From the NCBI GenBank assembly GCA_007280935.1, contig QYQK01000035.1, forward strand, positions 1-42,727: a stretch of DNA of 42,727 nt, written 5' to 3'. A program made the translations under genes and the position numbers. The DNA comes from Opitutales bacterium. GTDB lineage: Bacteria; Verrucomicrobiota; Verrucomicrobiia; Opitutales; UBA953. The notes under the pieces are model-generated. The model was not told where the DNA came from and made no database searches. It saw only the letters and a list, made by a program, of their open reading frames with translations. Shown here piece by piece: positions 17,821 to 25,228 of this stretch (within the stretch, counting starts at the first letter, position 1; the number at the start of each line of letters is the position of its first letter).

Positions 17821-19311
17821 ATGAAGTCCGAGGGCCGCGAAGAAGCCGCGACTTTCAGCTGCCAGGCATTCCCGCGCCGCAGCGCTGGCCTGCTGCTTCA
17901 TATCAGCGCCCTGCCAGGCAAGGGGCCAATTGGTGCGCTCGGTGAAGGTGCCCGTCGCTTCATCGACGCGCTGCAAGTCGCCGGTTTTAGCTGGTGGCAA
18001 GTCTGCCCACTTGGCCCGACAGGCTATGGCGATTCTCCTTATCAGGCGCTATCGGTCTTCGCCGGCAACCCATACCTGCTCGACCTCGACGACCTCGTTG
18101 CACGCGGCATGCTGACGGCCGCCGAAATCGCCCCGCTTCATCGCCACGGAGACGAAGGCACTGATTACGGCCGACTTTGGAATGACCTAAGACCGCTTTT
18201 ACGCCGTGCGGCCGGACGCGGAGCTGTGCTATTAAAAGACGATTCGACGTTCGAAGCTTTCCGCCGAGAGGAGGCTTACTGGCTCGACCCCTGGACGCGC
18301 TTCTCGGCTCTGCGTGAGATCCATGGTTTTACGGCCCCGACTTCATGGACAAAACAAACGGTCGACGACGGTTTAATAACCGAAGCCGCTGTCTTGCAGT
18401 TCTTGTTCAGTCAACAATGGCAGGCCCTTCGGATATATGCGCGCCAACGGGGTGTCTCCCTGTTTGGCGATGAGCCCATCTATGTCTCGGCCGATGGCTG
18501 TGATGCGAAGTTCAGGCCTGAACTCTTTCAGCTTGATGCGAGCGGGCGACCGACCGCTGTCGCCGGCGTCCCGCCTGACTACTTCTGCGAAGACGGGCAG
18601 CTTTGGGGCAATCCCCTCTATCTCTGGGAACGACATGCTGCCGATGGTTACCAATGGTGGAAATCGCGCGTGCACCACGACCTAAAATTATTCGACGCCA
18701 TTCGCATCGATCATTTTCGCGGCCTGCATGACTACTGGAGCGTGCCCGCAGACTCGCCCAACGCGCGGGTCGGCGAATGGATGCCGGGGCCGGACTTGGA
18801 TTTCACCCGTGCGCTCGGAGATCTCCCGCTGGTCGCCGAGGACCTTGGCCTACTCTCTCCCGGGGTCGAGGTCTTGCGCGAAACTGCCGGCCTTCCAGGC
18901 ATGTCCGTTCTCCAATTCGGTTTTGGCGGCCCGCCCAAAGGCAACCCGCATTTCCCGGCCAACATCACTCCGGATCGCATCGTCTATACAGGCACGCACG
19001 ATAATGATACGGTCGTGGGATGGTTCGCCCAAGCGCAGCCGCAAGAACTTGAACGGCTTGAGCAGTTTTTCGGACCGATGGCAGATCCTCACGTCACCTT
19101 AGCGGAAGCGGCTCTAGCCTCGCCCGCCGTCGGTGCCTTCATTCCCGTCCAAGACCTGCTCGGCCTTGGTACCGAAGCCCGTTTCAACACGCCTGGGAAT
19201 CCGCAGGGGAACTGGACGTGGCGGATGACGGAGAGCCAAATGGAAAAGCTTATCGCTCAAATGCCCGCTTGGCGCGAACGCCTCAAGGCTTCGGGAAGAA
19301 TTAACGCGTGA
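17821..19311 (+). CDS. malQ: 4-alpha-glucanotransferase (amylomaltase, GH77)
   Basis: A cytoplasmic glycoside hydrolase family 77 enzyme of 496 aa that transfers alpha-1,4-glucan chains in maltodextrin or glycogen metabolism. The N-terminal RRSAGLLLHISALPGKGPIG and GPTGYGDSPYQALSVFAGNPYLLDLD are typical. Catalytic residues: D297 in RIDHFRGLHDYW (nucleophile), E340 in LVAEDLG (acid/base) and D394 in GTHDND (transition-state stabiliser). Length matches the bacterial amylomaltases. The ATG lies 1 base after the upstream stop, and the 3' end overlaps the convergent ettA by 11 bases. No other glycogen gene is in the window. Confidence 0.96.
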   Translation: MKSEGREEAATFSCQAFPRRSAGLLLHISALPGKGPIGALGEGARRFIDALQVAGFSWWQVCPLGPTGYGDSPYQALSVFAGNPYLLDLDDLVARGMLTAAEIAPLHRHGDEGTDYGRLWNDLRPLLRRAAGRGAVLLKDDSTFEAFRREEAYWLDPWTRFSALREIHGFTAPTSWTKQTVDDGLITEAAVLQFLFSQQWQALRIYARQRGVSLFGDEPIYVSADGCDAKFRPELFQLDASGRPTAVAGVPPDYFCEDGQLWGNPLYLWERHAADGYQWWKSRVHHDLKLFDAIRIDHFRGLHDYWSVPADSPNARVGEWMPGPDLDFTRALGDLPLVAEDLGLLSPGVEVLRETAGLPGMSVLQFGFGGPPKGNPHFPANITPDRIVYTGTHDNDTVVGWFAQAQPQELERLEQFFGPMADPHVTLAEAALASPAVGAFIPVQDLLGLGTEARFNTPGNPQGNWTWRMTESQMEKLIAQMPAWRERLKASGRINA

Positions 19312-20977
19312 GTCGGCGATACTTCGGTCGGCGCGGCGTATCGGAGTCGAGCCCGAGCCGCTTCCGGCGGTCTTCCAGGTAGTCGCCGTAATTACCCTCG
19401 TGCCAGACCACGCGGCTATCACCTTCGAAGGCGAGGATGTGCGTCGCCACGCGATCAAGGAACCAGCGGTCGTGCGTCACGATCACCGCGCAACCCGCAA
19501 AACCTTCAAGAGCGTCTTCCAAGGCGCGAATCGTATTCACGTCTAAATCATTAGTCGGTTCGTCCAGCAACAAGACATTGGCACCGGCCTTGATGAGGCG
19601 AGCGAGGTGGATGCGATTACGCTCACCTCCGGACATGATGCCGACCTTGCGCTGTTGCACATCGCCGGTGAAACCAAAGCGCGCCGCGTAAGCGCGAGCC
19701 GGCACCATAATCTTACCGAGGTGTACCATGTCTTGGCCGTCGGAAATCGCCGACCATAGAGGCGCTTCCGCCGGCAAGGAATCGCGCGACTGATCGACGT
19801 AAGCGAGCTTGACCGTATCCCCTAAGGTCAAAGTTCCGCGATCAGGCTTTTCCTGCCCCGTGATCATGCGGAACAACGTCGTCTTGCCGGCGCCATTAGG
19901 GCCGACCACGCCGACGATACCACCGGCAGGTAACGAGAAATTGACTTCTTCCATCAGCACCCGGTCGCCATAGGCTTTCATGAGACCGCGTGCTTCGATA
20001 ACGGCACCACCGAGACGGGGGCCAGGCGGAATCCAAATTTCCGCCAGTTTTTCCTGCAGGTTCTGATCTTGGGTCAGCATCTGCTCGTAGGCTCGGATGC
20101 GGGCTTTGTTCTTCGCGACACGCGCCTTAGGTGAGGCGCTAGCCCATTCTCGTTCGCGCTCCATGGAACGCGAACGGGCCACCGATTGCTTTTCTTCCAT
20201 CTCCACCCGGGCGCGCTTCTGGCCGAGCCAGGATGAGTAATTACCCTTCCAAGGAATACCTCGGCCGCGATCGAGCTCCAAGATCCAGCCCGCCACGTTA
20301 TCAAGGAAGTAGCGGTCGTGCGTAATGGCGATGACCGTGCCCTTATAACTTTGCAAATGACGTTCGAGCCAGGCGACCGTATCGGCGTCCAAATGGTTGG
20401 TCGGCTCATCCAGGAGAAGGATGTCCGGCTCCATCAGGAGTAATCGACATAAAGCCACGCGACGCTTTTCGCCGCCGGAAAGCGAGGACACGATCGCCTC
20501 AGCGGGAGGACAGCGCAGGGCTTCCATCGCCATGTCGATACGGGCGTCGAGGTCCCAGCCGCCACGCGTATCGAGGATCGCCTGAATCTCGCCTTGGCGC
20601 GCGAGAATTTTTTCCTGCTCCTTGGCATCATCCGTCTCGGACACCTTAACGAACGTATCGTCATATTCTTCTAACAAAGCCTTCATGGCGGCCGCGGCCT
20701 GCATCACGCATTCGTGGACGGTGAGATGTTCATCGAGCCGTGGTTCTTGCGCCAGATAGCCTAGAGTATACCCGGGCACCTGACTGATGGTGCCGTCGAA
20801 GTCCGCATCCTCGCCGGCCATGATTTTAAGCAAAGTGGACTTACCCGAGCCATTTAGGCCCAAAACACCGATTTTAGCCCCAAAGAAGTAAGAAAGTGAA
20901 ATATCGCGGAAAATCGGCTTCTTTTCAAAAGACTTGGTCACCCCTGTCATCGTGAAGATTACCTTTTCGTCAGCCAT
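19301..20977 (-). CDS. ettA: energy-dependent translational throttle protein EttA (ABC-F ATPase)
   Basis: A soluble ABC-F protein of 558 aa (family length about 555) that binds the ribosomal E site and gates the first elongation step according to ATP/ADP level. It has two ABC domains: the first with Walker A GLNGSGKS (40-47), signature LSGGEKRR and LLDEPTNHLD; the second with GPNGAGKTT, MSGGERNR and LLDEPTNDLD. The linker carries the EttA-specific arm region and MEREREWASASPKARVAKNKARI. There are no membrane segments. The gene is single, divergent from nusA. Confidence 0.95.
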   Translation of the reverse strand: MADEKVIFTMTGVTKSFEKKPIFRDISLSYFFGAKIGVLGLNGSGKSTLLKIMAGEDADFDGTISQVPGYTLGYLAQEPRLDEHLTVHECVMQAAAAMKALLEEYDDTFVKVSETDDAKEQEKILARQGEIQAILDTRGGWDLDARIDMAMEALRCPPAEAIVSSLSGGEKRRVALCRLLLMEPDILLLDEPTNHLDADTVAWLERHLQSYKGTVIAITHDRYFLDNVAGWILELDRGRGIPWKGNYSSWLGQKRARVEMEEKQSVARSRSMEREREWASASPKARVAKNKARIRAYEQMLTQDQNLQEKLAEIWIPPGPRLGGAVIEARGLMKAYGDRVLMEEVNFSLPAGGIVGVVGPNGAGKTTLFRMITGQEKPDRGTLTLGDTVKLAYVDQSRDSLPAEAPLWSAISDGQDMVHLGKIMVPARAYAARFGFTGDVQQRKVGIMSGGERNRIHLARLIKAGANVLLLDEPTNDLDVNTIRALEDALEGFAGCAVIVTHDRWFLDRVATHILAFEGDSRVVWHEGNYGDYLEDRRKRLGLDSDTPRRPKYRRLTR

Positions 20978-21045
20978 AGGGAGAGATTTCTAAGTTCGGG
21001 GGCGGGGCGCAAGCGGAACCCACGACCCTGAAAACTTTACCGCTC

Positions 21046-21079
21046 TTGACAAGAAAGGGGGCGTGCCCAAGGTAAAACG
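21046..21079 (+). promoter_or_regulatory. candidate promoter of the nusA operon
   Basis: A perfect TTGACA at 21046-21051 lies in the divergent ettA/nusA gap. No good TATAAT follows at 17 bases (best are AAGGTA or GGTAAA at 21069-21076), so only the -35 half is convincing. If used, the transcript would contain the hairpin at 21098-21124. Confidence 0.4.
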
Positions 21080-21097
21080 CAGTTCACCTTTACCGAG

Positions 21098-21124
21098 GTG
21101 GGCCCGTCTGGGCCCGCTTTTTTT
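21098..21124 (+). terminator. terminator-like hairpin in the nusA leader (probable attenuator)
   Basis: GTGGGCCC, loop GTCT, GGGCCCGC (8 bp, one G-T pair) followed by seven T is a textbook intrinsic terminator on the plus strand. The nearest upstream plus-strand gene, malQ, ends 1.8 kb away, and the intervening ettA is on the other strand, so the hairpin sits in the leader of nusA-infB-rbfA, 38 bases before the nusA ATG. The region just upstream can pair in other ways (21071-21076 with 21089-21094; 21085-21089 with 21096-21100), the second competing with the base of the terminator stem. Regulation by attenuation is inferred. Confidence 0.7.
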
Positions 21125-21161
21125 GTCCCTAAATCATTTCACCGCCAACACCGCATATACC

Positions 21162-22409
21162 ATGAGCGTCGACATCAAACAATTCCTCCAATACCTCGAA
21201 AAAGAGAAGCACATCCCCAAGGATGAAGCCTGCGCTCTCATCGTCGAGGCCATCAAATCCTCCGTCGAAAAGTCGGTCATGTCGGGACAAAACGTCGACA
21301 TCACCGCCGACCCCGCCTCCGGGAAGCTCGAGGCCTACGTCATCTATAAGGTGACCGATGCCGTCTCGGACCCCCTCCAGGAGATGAACCCAGTCTCAGC
21401 CGTGGCCTTCCGCGCCGACGCCAAGGTCGGCGAAGAGATCCGCAAGCCCATCAACGTCGCTGACCTCGGTCGGATTGCGGCCAAGACCACGCAGCAGCTT
21501 CTCAATCAACGCTTCCGCAAGATCGAGAAAGACCAAGTCTTCCAAGAGTATAAGGATAAGGTCGGCGATATCGTCACCGGCATCGTGCGTCGCACCGAGC
21601 GCGGTAACGTCATCATCGAACTCGGCACCGCCGAGGCCGTACTCACTCACAAGGAACGCTGCCACGGCGACGAGTTCCGCACGGGTGATCGCATCCGTTG
21701 CCTCCTGCTGGAAATCCGCGACGACCCACAGCGTGGTCGCGAGTTCGTCCTCTCCCGCGCCAACCCGCAATTCGTCCGCCGCCTCCTCGAGCTCGAAGTC
21801 GCAGAAATCGCCGACAAGACCGTCACCATTGCCGCCATGGCGCGCGACCCTGGTTACCGCACGAAAATCGCCGTTGATTCGCGCGACCCTAAGGTCGACC
21901 CCGTGGGCGCCTGCGTGGGTGCTCGTGGCGCTCGGGTGCGTAATATCGTCAAGGAGTTGGGCGGAGAAAAGATCGATATCATCCGCTACCATCCTGAGCC
22001 GCTCAAGCTCTTGGAAGAAGCCATCCGCCCGGCCCGTCCGCGCAATGTCCGCATCGACGAACGTACGCGTTCAATCTTCTTCGAAGTAGACGAAGACGAC
22101 ATGCGCATCGCCATCGGCAGCAAAGGCCGCAACGCCCGCCTGACCTCCAAACTCATAGGCTGGGGCCTCAACATCTCCAAGTCCACCCACAGCGAACAAA
22201 GCTTCGAAGCCAAAGCTGGCGATGTCGCCGTTCGTCTGGCCGAACAATTGGGCGTCAGCCCGGAGCTAATCGCGAAGTTCGTCGGCTTGGGCATCTCCGG
22301 ACTTGAAGCCTTTGAAGGCACCACGGTTGAAGACTTTAAGGAAAGCGGCATCCCGACCGAAGAAGTCGAAGCCGTCCTCGCCGCCGTCGCCCAGACGCGT
22401 AAGGCCTAA
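21162..22409 (+). CDS. nusA: transcription termination/antitermination factor NusA
   Basis: NusA (415 aa) binds RNA polymerase and nascent RNA and affects pausing, termination and antitermination. The N-terminal polymerase-binding domain is followed by an S1 domain (about residues 130-200: GDIVTGIVRRTERGNVIIELG), then two KH domains (DPVGACVGARGARVRNIVKELGGEKIDII, and AIGSKGRNARLTSKLIGW). A short C-terminal helix-hairpin-helix piece follows (ELIAKFVGLGISGLEAF). The frame extends upstream through the leader, but MSVDIKQFL at 21162 is the natural start. rimP, which usually precedes nusA, is absent here. It is followed by infB after 48 bases. Confidence 0.96.
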   Translation: MSVDIKQFLQYLEKEKHIPKDEACALIVEAIKSSVEKSVMSGQNVDITADPASGKLEAYVIYKVTDAVSDPLQEMNPVSAVAFRADAKVGEEIRKPINVADLGRIAAKTTQQLLNQRFRKIEKDQVFQEYKDKVGDIVTGIVRRTERGNVIIELGTAEAVLTHKERCHGDEFRTGDRIRCLLLEIRDDPQRGREFVLSRANPQFVRRLLELEVAEIADKTVTIAAMARDPGYRTKIAVDSRDPKVDPVGACVGARGARVRNIVKELGGEKIDIIRYHPEPLKLLEEAIRPARPRNVRIDERTRSIFFEVDEDDMRIAIGSKGRNARLTSKLIGWGLNISKSTHSEQSFEAKAGDVAVRLAEQLGVSPELIAKFVGLGISGLEAFEGTTVEDFKESGIPTEEVEAVLAAVAQTRKA

Positions 22410-22457: not shown

Positions 22458-24860
22458 ATGACCGAGAAGAAGAAAAAGCCCGAAGCTAAGAAAGCAGTTG
22501 CGCCCCAACGTTACAGCGACGTCGCCAAAGATCTAGGACTCGAGGTCAAGGCCCTGATTGCTTTGGTTGATCAATTCGTAGAAGTACAGCCAGAGTGGAG
22601 AGACTACGTTTACTCCGAAGGAAAAAAGCCCGCCGCCTCGAGTAATTTCGGCAAGACCTATCGAGAGGCGTTTATGACCTTCGCGGAAGATAAGTTACCG
22701 AAGAAGGCACCGGAACCGGAAATCATCGTAGTTCCCGAGCCGATCACGCCAGTCGCAGTTGAAGCCCCGAAGCCAGTTGCGCCGAAGGCGAACACGCCCA
22801 CGCCGGTCAGTTTGCCCCCTCGCCCGACGATGGCTCCGCCGCCCGTCAGCTTGCCGCCGCGCTCTCCGGTCATTCCAGCGCGCCCGATTGCGCCAACGCC
22901 GAACCGCGCTGACTTCCCTCCCGTCGTCATCAATTCGCCGACACCGCCCCCCGTTCGCCCGCCGAACGTGCCGCCCGTGCGCTCACCCATGACGGCCCCC
23001 GTGGTAAATCGTCCTGCCGCCACCAGCAGTCAAGTCGCTCCAGGCAGCAAGGGTACCATCACGGTTCGCCCGCCCATCGTCGTGCGCGACTTCGCCATCG
23101 CCCTCAACCTCAAGCCATTTCAGGTCATCGGTAATCTGATGGAATTGAACAAAGTCGTCAGCGTAACTTCCGTCATCGAAGAAGCCGACGCCCGCAAGGT
23201 GGCCGAGCGCCATGGTTATACTTTAGAAATTCGCCACCGCGGTGAAGGCGTCCAAGCCGTTAAGAAAGTCGAGAAGCCCGCCGAAGACGATCCGGCACTG
23301 CTAACCGTGCGTCCGCCGGTAGTTTGCGTACTGGGTCACGTCGACCACGGTAAAACGACCCTGCTCGACTATTTCCGCAAGACCAACGTCGTCGCCGGCG
23401 AAGCTGGCGGCATCACTCAGCACATCGGTGCTTACTCCGTAACCTACCAGGGCGAAAAGCCCGAGTACAAAGGACGGACCGTCACTTTCCTCGACACCCC
23501 GGGTCACGCCGCTTTCGCTAAAATGCGCGAGCGTGGTGCCAGTGTGACCGATATCGCCGTTCTCGTTGTCGCCGCGGATGACGGCTTCATGCCCCAGACC
23601 GAAGAAGCTTTGAAATTTGCGCAGAAGCATGCGGGCTCCATCGTGGCGGCCATCAATAAGGTCGACGCCAAAGGTGCCAACATCGATCGCGTCAAACAGC
23701 AGATGCAGCAGCGCGGCATCACCCCGGAAGACTGGGGCGGCGAAGTCATCACGAGTCCCGTCTCCGCACTTAAGGGAACGGGAATGAACGAACTGATTGA
23801 ATCCATTCTTCTGCAGGCCGAAGTCCTCGACCTGAAAGCTAATCCGAAATGTCCCGCCCAAGGCGTGGTCATCGAATCACAGATGGAAACGGGCCGCGGA
23901 CCAACCGCGACCGTCATCGTCCAAAAGGGCACCCTGAAAACGGGCGACTCTTTTGTCTGCGGCGAAACCTGGTGCAAAGTCCGCGCCCTCATGGATGAGC
24001 ATGGCACCCGGATGCCCAGCGTCAGTCCCGGCCGCCCAGCTCTCGTCTTAGGCTGGGACGCCGTCCCCGCACCCGGTACCAAATTCCAAACCGTTAAGAA
24101 CGACCGCGAAGCCCGCGAGATCGCCGAAGAGGCTGCTCTCGCCGGACGCAAGCTCGCCGAATCCCAACAGTTGGCGCCTAACACGGGTGCCCGCCCTGGC
24201 ATGTCAGACCTCGAGCGCTTGATGGCGGCACTCGACAAAGATAAAGAAAAGATTCTCCGCGTCCTCCTTAAGGCCGATGTCAATGGTACCCTCGAAGCTC
24301 TCGAAGGTTGCTTGATTGAAATCAAGTCGACCAAGGTGCGCCTCGAGATTGTCGGTGGTTCCGTCGGACCAGTCACCCAAAGCGATGCCGATTTGGCTGC
24401 CGCAGCGAAGGCCTCGATTGTCGCCTTCGACACCAAAGTGGACAACGGCGTGCAGGCTCAACTCAAGCGCACTGCCGTCCGCCTGATCACGCACGATATT
24501 ATTTACGAACTCATCACCCTTGTGAAAGAGGCGATGGCTGAGATGCTCGACCCCGAAGTCCGCGAAAGCAAGCTGGGCGCCGCCGAAGTGCGTGCCGTCT
24601 TCCCGCAGGGCAAGGAACACAAGGTCGCCGGTTGTATGGTCACCGAAGGCCTTATCCGCCGTGCCGCCAAGGCGCGCGTGTTACGCAACGGCAAGATTAT
24701 CCATAACGGACCGGTCGAAACCTTACGTCGTTTCAAGGACGACGCCTCCGAAGTCAAAGCTGGCTTCGAATGCGGCATCAAGCTCGGCGGTTACGACGAA
24801 TATCAGCCGGGTGACATCATCGAGGCCGTCGAGATGCTCCAGATCCGTCCCAGCCTTTAA
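22458..24860 (+). CDS. infB: translation initiation factor IF-2
   Basis: The GTPase (800 aa) that places initiator tRNA on the 30S subunit and promotes subunit joining. Residues 1-85 are a charged N-terminal region, about 90-200 a Pro/Ala/Val-rich disordered linker with repeated PPP and PPRP-like units, then an IF2-N module (VVRDFAIALNLKPFQVIGNLM). The G domain has G1 GHVDHGKTTL (about 293), G3 DTPGHAAF and G4 NKVD, followed by domains II-IV ending in YDEYQPGDIIEAVEM. It is co-transcribed with nusA and rbfA, whose ATG is 5 bases after the stop. The linker composition is species-specific and explains its low similarity to reference proteins. Confidence 0.97.
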   Translation: MTEKKKKPEAKKAVAPQRYSDVAKDLGLEVKALIALVDQFVEVQPEWRDYVYSEGKKPAASSNFGKTYREAFMTFAEDKLPKKAPEPEIIVVPEPITPVAVEAPKPVAPKANTPTPVSLPPRPTMAPPPVSLPPRSPVIPARPIAPTPNRADFPPVVINSPTPPPVRPPNVPPVRSPMTAPVVNRPAATSSQVAPGSKGTITVRPPIVVRDFAIALNLKPFQVIGNLMELNKVVSVTSVIEEADARKVAERHGYTLEIRHRGEGVQAVKKVEKPAEDDPALLTVRPPVVCVLGHVDHGKTTLLDYFRKTNVVAGEAGGITQHIGAYSVTYQGEKPEYKGRTVTFLDTPGHAAFAKMRERGASVTDIAVLVVAADDGFMPQTEEALKFAQKHAGSIVAAINKVDAKGANIDRVKQQMQQRGITPEDWGGEVITSPVSALKGTGMNELIESILLQAEVLDLKANPKCPAQGVVIESQMETGRGPTATVIVQKGTLKTGDSFVCGETWCKVRALMDEHGTRMPSVSPGRPALVLGWDAVPAPGTKFQTVKNDREAREIAEEAALAGRKLAESQQLAPNTGARPGMSDLERLMAALDKDKEKILRVLLKADVNGTLEALEGCLIEIKSTKVRLEIVGGSVGPVTQSDADLAAAAKASIVAFDTKVDNGVQAQLKRTAVRLITHDIIYELITLVKEAMAEMLDPEVRESKLGAAEVRAVFPQGKEHKVAGCMVTEGLIRRAAKARVLRNGKIIHNGPVETLRRFKDDASEVKAGFECGIKLGGYDEYQPGDIIEAVEMLQIRPSL

Positions 24861-24865
24861 TCGAA

Positions 24866-25228
24866 ATGTCGCAACGTCAGCTCCGGGTCGCCGAATTGGT
24901 CCAACGCGAAGTGTCTTCCGCGTTGCGCCAAGGCTGGGGCAACGAAGCGGCGCTGATCACGATCACGCGCGCCAACGTCTCGCCTGACCTCCGTCAGGTA
25001 CGCGTCGGCTTTGCGGTCGCCGGCGATGACGCCGCGAAAAAGGCCGCTCGCACTTTGCTCAAACGTATCCGCAACGAGATTCGCGCCAAGGTCGGCGGCA
25101 TCTTGCAGATGAAGAATACGCCGGAACTCAGTTTCGCCGAAGATGATGTGACGGGCGGAGTCGCCCGCGTCCAAGCCATGCTCGATGACTTATCGCGCAA
25201 GGATGGGACGACCCCGAAATACGACTAA
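24866..25228 (+). CDS. rbfA: 30S ribosome-binding factor RbfA
   Basis: A 120-aa KH-like protein needed for maturation of the 16S rRNA 5' end and for cold adaptation. Family pattern: RVAELVQREVSSALRQG at the N terminus, ITITRANVSPDLRQVRVGFAV in the central strands, and IRAKVGGILQMKNTPELSFAEDD near the C terminus, where the family has a KL...PEL.F..D motif. It ends the nusA-infB-rbfA operon; the stop overlaps the convergent mcsB by 4 bases. The usual following genes (nrnA, truB, ribF) are found about 11 kb downstream. Confidence 0.94.
   Translation: MSQRQLRVAELVQREVSSALRQGWGNEAALITITRANVSPDLRQVRVGFAVAGDDAAKKAARTLLKRIRNEIRAKVGGILQMKNTPELSFAEDDVTGGVARVQAMLDDLSRKDGTTPKYD

Follow-up and report, generated by a model that had tools for sequence, protein, structure and literature searches.

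Identification of a probable leader attenuator ahead of nusA-infB-rbfA

The window (the whole stretch of DNA analysed, 42,727 nucleotides) carries a strong terminator hairpin shortly before the nusA-infB-rbfA operon. At a probability of roughly 0.75 for the explanation as a whole, we read it as a leader attenuator of this operon, the Verrucomicrobiota counterpart of the rimP-leader, through which NusA would exert feedback. Taken by itself, the assignment of the hairpin to the leader attenuators of the rimP-leader kind is, from sequence comparison, very probably correct. We regard the layout as that of an attenuator because a predicted promoter, a short leader, a strong terminator and an essential operon follow one another. 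The features are as follows (window coordinates).

17821–19311, plus strand, 4-alpha-glucanotransferase gene, the nearest plus-strand gene upstream
19301–20977, minus strand, ABC-F type ATPase gene, between the glucanotransferase gene and the hairpin
21046–21051, plus strand, −35 box TTGACA
21068–21073, plus strand, predicted −10 box CAAGGT, 16 nt past the −35 box and a weak match to consensus
21081–21124, plus strand, predicted leader RNA of about 44 nt, placed by promoter spacing and terminator and ending with the U-tract
21084–21101, plus strand, candidate 5′ hairpin (21084–21090 with 21095–21101), which excludes the lower terminator stem
21095–21124, plus strand, terminator hairpin and U-tract (core GUGGG...CCCGC), supported by fold z, covariation and model R1
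21125–21161, plus strand, remaining nusA 5′ untranslated region, read from the sequence
21162–22409, plus strand, nusA (Pfam NusA_N, KH_5)
22458–24860, plus strand, infB, translation initiation factor IF-2 (Pfam GTP_EFTU, IF-2, others)
24866–25228, plus strand, rbfA (Pfam RBFA)

The stem-loop (21095–21120) has 11 base pairs and a loop of 4 nt, with seven T at 21118–21124, and the ATG of nusA at 21162 lies 37 nt past the end of the T run. As RNA the hairpin folds at −20.0 kcal/mol compared to −9.2 for shuffles (z −4.35), a value equalled by none of 200 shuffles, and among 19 terminator-like sites between 15 and 27 kb it ranks first in pairs and in GC pairs. A reading of this DNA made from its sequence only had described such a GC-rich stem with seven T before nusA and had noted that there was no upstream gene for it to terminate; both observations hold, the nearest plus-strand gene ending at 19311, about 1.8 kb away, with a minus-strand gene in between. 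The stem includes GUGGGC...GCCCGC (21098–21117), an instance of a GGGc...gCCC motif that a pattern search finds only once in the genome to which the window belongs. Rfam returned nothing relevant, whether for the window or, at lax thresholds, for the region, and no Shine-Dalgarno-like sequence was seen ahead of the nusA start in the window (21125–21161) or in the genus.

The TTGACA box that the sequence-only reading had placed ahead of the hairpin is found again across the order, as TTGAC, in 48 of 49 nusA leaders. At a spacing of 16–18 after TTGACA, the −10 signal of 27 order leaders scores 6.93 on average compared to 5.02 (sd 0.34) for shuffled spacers. CAAGGT puts the predicted transcription start near 21081 (21080–21082), upstream of the hairpin, so the terminated RNA would be about 44 nt long. 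Most of the genus also keeps a GGGGGCAAGCGGAACCC-like block (21003–21022) in the gap separating the divergent ABC-F gene from the nusA promoter; it may be a binding site or the promoter from which the ABC-F gene is read. Two other elements were considered and rejected. An outer stem formed in one fold by GGGGGC (21057–21062) and GUCCC is situated 5′ of the predicted start, and its G run is not retained in relatives such as L020; a leader peptide, or a GTG-extended nusA, from 21063 would likewise begin upstream of the predicted transcription start.

Conservation of the hairpin within the order

NusA was detected in 52 of 57 related genomes. Judged by NusA matches in named genomes, the nearest relatives of the window fall in Opitutae (Verrucomicrobiota). 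The arrangement of TTGAC followed by a hairpin with a T run is found ahead of nusA in 33 leaders from the same genus; of 16 leaders from the order's other families, 15 have it and L042 does not. Changes on both sides of the stem are seen within the order in 7 of 10 pairs, GGGCCC/GGGCCC becoming GGGUCC/GGACCC in one example, and no shuffles reached this. Covariation and presence in close relatives, two points on which the sequence-only reading had proposed that its hairpin be judged, both speak for it. We also built a 30-nt covariance model of the hairpin (R1) from order sequences and searched it over 51 order genomes. In 48 of these R1 matches at a distance of 12–75 nt before nusA, as the top match of the genome in 42, and it finds nothing before nusA in the remaining three (G048, G192 and G224). 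In the window's own genome the best match is the nusA-leader hairpin, at 34.6 bits. Seventeen of the 51 genomes supplied sequences to the model; among the other 34, which include some close relatives of the window, R1 matches before nusA in 31. The gap from the match to the start codon is only 12–25 nt in many order genomes. Judging from a reading of the leaders rather than a tally, the genes upstream appear to differ between families, suggesting that the hairpin belongs to nusA and not to the upstream gene. In one genome of the same genus (G020:C2:258539-259574), the NusA matches are at most about 52% identical, carry several in-frame stops and meet a contig end; a degraded gene, contamination or an assembly error are the alternatives here.

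The leader in the rest of Verrucomicrobiota

Beyond the order, we inspected 59 nusA regions from 38 families of the phylum. In 44 of them, spread over 28 of the families, a terminator hairpin scores above the 95th percentile of shuffles, a cut-off that 5% of shuffles pass and that makes 44 of 59 a lower bound, since several others show the motif by eye. A clear hairpin is absent in some members. The usual form in the phylum is (A)GAGUGGG...CCCACUC-U(n), and GUGGG and CCC are invariant in an alignment of 18 regions picked for having the motif. On this comparison, the nusA leader hairpin is the Verrucomicrobiota form of the rimP-leader, rimP-less and apparently general in the phylum. We found no description of a nusA leader from Verrucomicrobiota in the open-access literature searched, so the kind of attenuator would here be extended to a phylum for which that literature offers none.

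Several departures from the usual form were seen. Limisphaerales and some others (L077, L080, L081, L082, L085) have the variant AAGUCGG...CCGACUU-U(n) ahead of nusA, with a CUGG...CCAG-like hairpin 5′ of it. In the Spartobacteria leaders L071 and L072, an inverted repeat, CCCGACACAC...GUGCGUCGGG, replaces the terminator and has no U-tract. In L073, L074, L174, L175, L191 and L201 the terminator hairpin and its U-tract lie inside a further, outer stem; in L175, for example, GAUAGGCAAAC before the hairpin pairs with UUUGUCUAUC after it. Such an outer stem reaches p ≤ 0.06 against shuffles in about a dozen of 49 regions and was not seen in the genus of the window.

The leader persists where rimP is undetectable

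The gene rimP, the absence of which from this operon the sequence-only reading had remarked on, was detected neither in the window's own genome (83.5% complete) nor in the phylum genomes searched. With working controls, RimP_N was found in none of 194 phylum genomes and the RimP C-terminal domain in none of 96, in domain searches that would miss a very diverged RimP. It is the lack of any detectable rimP in these 194 genomes that leaves the leader sitting directly on nusA. In other phyla, R1 at E up to 1 matches 37 of 53 nusA loci, each time just ahead of an open reading frame of at least 120 aa, which is RimP in all three cases tested by Pfam; 29 of the 37 matched loci carry G(U/C)GGG. At one locus from candidate division FCPU426 (L122), the hairpin stands directly before a 505-aa open reading frame at the NusA start position, with no rimP-sized frame between.

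That a phylum without detectable RimP nevertheless keeps the leader on nusA argues against RimP as its reader and makes NusA the simplest candidate. The proposal that NusA regulates the rimP-leader likewise fits a leader that persists without rimP.

A candidate 5′ hairpin in the genus

The sequence-only reading had also suggested a second hairpin that would break the terminator stem. Such a hairpin can form: UCACCUU (21084–21090) pairs with GAGGUGG (21095–21101), bases that belong to the 5′ arm of the terminator, and once it has formed the leftover GC stem no longer adjoins the U-tract. For a leader beginning at the predicted start, the two folds are nearly isoenergetic (−17.2 kcal/mol with the 5′ hairpin, −20.5 with the terminator). 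All 33 genus leaders retain both arms, around a loop that comes in 7 distinct forms of varying sequence and length. The competition envisaged fared less well as a general feature, however: the complementarity is not above that of shuffles and shows no compensatory change, and in other families of the order the hairpin is inconsistent, with CACUU/AAGUG in single members such as L036 and L068. An order-wide antiterminator is therefore not supported, and for the genus we consider a real antiterminator a tentative proposal, with the odds somewhat against it.

Proposed mechanism and alternative explanations

We propose that RNA polymerase starts near 21081, transcribes the leader of about 44 nt and then either stops at the U-tract (21118–21124) or continues into nusA-infB-rbfA. 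The order of promoter, hairpin and gene, and how deeply it is conserved, are shown directly; termination in the cell is the step that we infer, and premature termination of transcription of this operon, already suggested by the sequence-only reading, is strongly supported by the comparison of genomes. NusA would raise termination, so that high NusA would lower expression of its own operon. We lean towards NusA as the main regulator, by analogy with the systems described below; at −20 kcal/mol the terminator is strong and may also work without it. In the genus of the window, the 5′ hairpin (21084–21101) could hold the 5′ arm of the terminator and so permit read-through, which is the least certain step. 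If start and stop are as predicted, some 44 nt apart, the Verrucomicrobiota leader would represent a minimal form of attenuator.

A factor other than NusA could act on the stem or on the 5′ hairpin, for example NusG, a ribosomal protein, another RNA-binding protein or a ligand. Conservation of the stem sequence beyond what pairing requires would suit such a factor, as would the small energy difference between the two folds in the genus. However, no Rfam family matches, no conserved sensor domain was seen beyond the hairpin in the order and the experimental precedent belongs to NusA, and we consider such a factor unlikely; RimP in particular is an unlikely regulator since it was not detected in the phylum. 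A little less likely again is a fixed partial terminator that is unregulated and merely holds expression of the operon low and constant. It would account for the terminator itself being the conserved part, with neither a larger sensor nor a consistent antiterminator conserved in the order. Yet the stem sequence is kept beyond pairing, both in the 18 motif-chosen regions and in the matches of R1 across phyla, which suggests recognition, and feedback at such leaders is reported for B. subtilis (review PMC12288461) and cited for E. coli (PMC6511841).

Two further explanations place the role of the hairpin outside regulation of nusA by its own leader. Since the gene upstream is divergent, stray plus-strand transcription could enter nusA, and the hairpin might insulate the operon from it, with the true nusA promoter downstream. 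We reject a downstream promoter in view of the position of the conserved −35/−10 pair, upstream of the hairpin, and of the gap of 12–25 nt between hairpin model and start codon in many order genomes, which is too short for a promoter; we give insulation hardly any credence. Termination would yield an RNA of about 44 nt that could have a further role, as a trans-acting small RNA, or the hairpin could stabilise the 5′ end, termination control being secondary. The hairpin tracks the start of nusA or of rimP-nusA in all groups seen, as expected of a cis element, and the leader outside it varies, making this very improbable, if marginally less so than insulation. We thus prefer the leader attenuator with NusA feedback. 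A bolder version, which we put forward tentatively and at rather less than even odds, holds that (A)GAGUGGG...CCCACUC-U(n) is a sequence-specific attenuator common to several phyla and read by NusA (or RNA polymerase) and not by RimP, that Verrucomicrobiota, having no detectable rimP and retaining the leader, would be the natural experiment showing so, and that a small antiterminator hairpin was added in the genus of the window.

Comparison with known systems

In its 2010 description the rimP-leader ranked as the most ubiquitous of the predicted attenuators (Naville & Gautheret 2010, PMC2965389). It consists of a GGGc...gCCC hairpin followed by a U run, 4–130 nt ahead of the first gene of the operon and with no larger conserved element, and NusA was proposed as its likeliest regulator; Verrucomicrobia go unmentioned in the main text of that paper. 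The window shares with it the GGGc...gCCC stem, the U run directly after and the short distance to the first gene (37 nt to nusA; 12–75 nt in the order), and the order-derived R1 matches leaders that precede rimP in other phyla. Unlike in the rimP-leader operons, the first gene here is nusA. Since the published family takes its definition from rimP operons, and this operon lacks rimP, we treat the window's leader as a variant, not an ordinary member.

The Rfam family RF01770 (rimP) concerns the same operon and the same general idea, with a model of 102 positions. At a gathering score of 47 it has no match in the window or in its genome, and among 14 control genomes it matches E. coli only; it therefore describes a narrower, longer form, and its miss does not decide membership of the broader kind. 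In E. coli, the metY-rimP-nusA-infB leader has GGGCTTTAGGCCC-T7 just ahead of rimP, comparable to the terminator hairpin of the window, although R1 gives no match to this leader at E up to 1 and, unlike the window, the region has a tRNA gene, tandem terminators and rimP. NusA feedback on the metY-nusA-infB operon is cited in PMC6511841. The nusA leader of B. subtilis, where termination is reported to be stimulated by NusA in a feedback loop (Mondal et al. 2016, as cited in the review PMC12288461), resembles that of the window in that an intrinsic terminator lies in the 5′ leader, downstream of a promoter (here predicted). The two are likened by description, not by sequence, and the first gene is rimP (ylxS) in the B. 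subtilis operon and nusA in that of the window; the effect of NusA on termination is a feature of B. subtilis, whereas the leader of the window is known from its sequence. NusA feedback is here plausible rather than new, given the B. subtilis report and the citation for E. coli. The kind of attenuator was likewise already known, and the leader here is a rimP-less form of it, directly on nusA.
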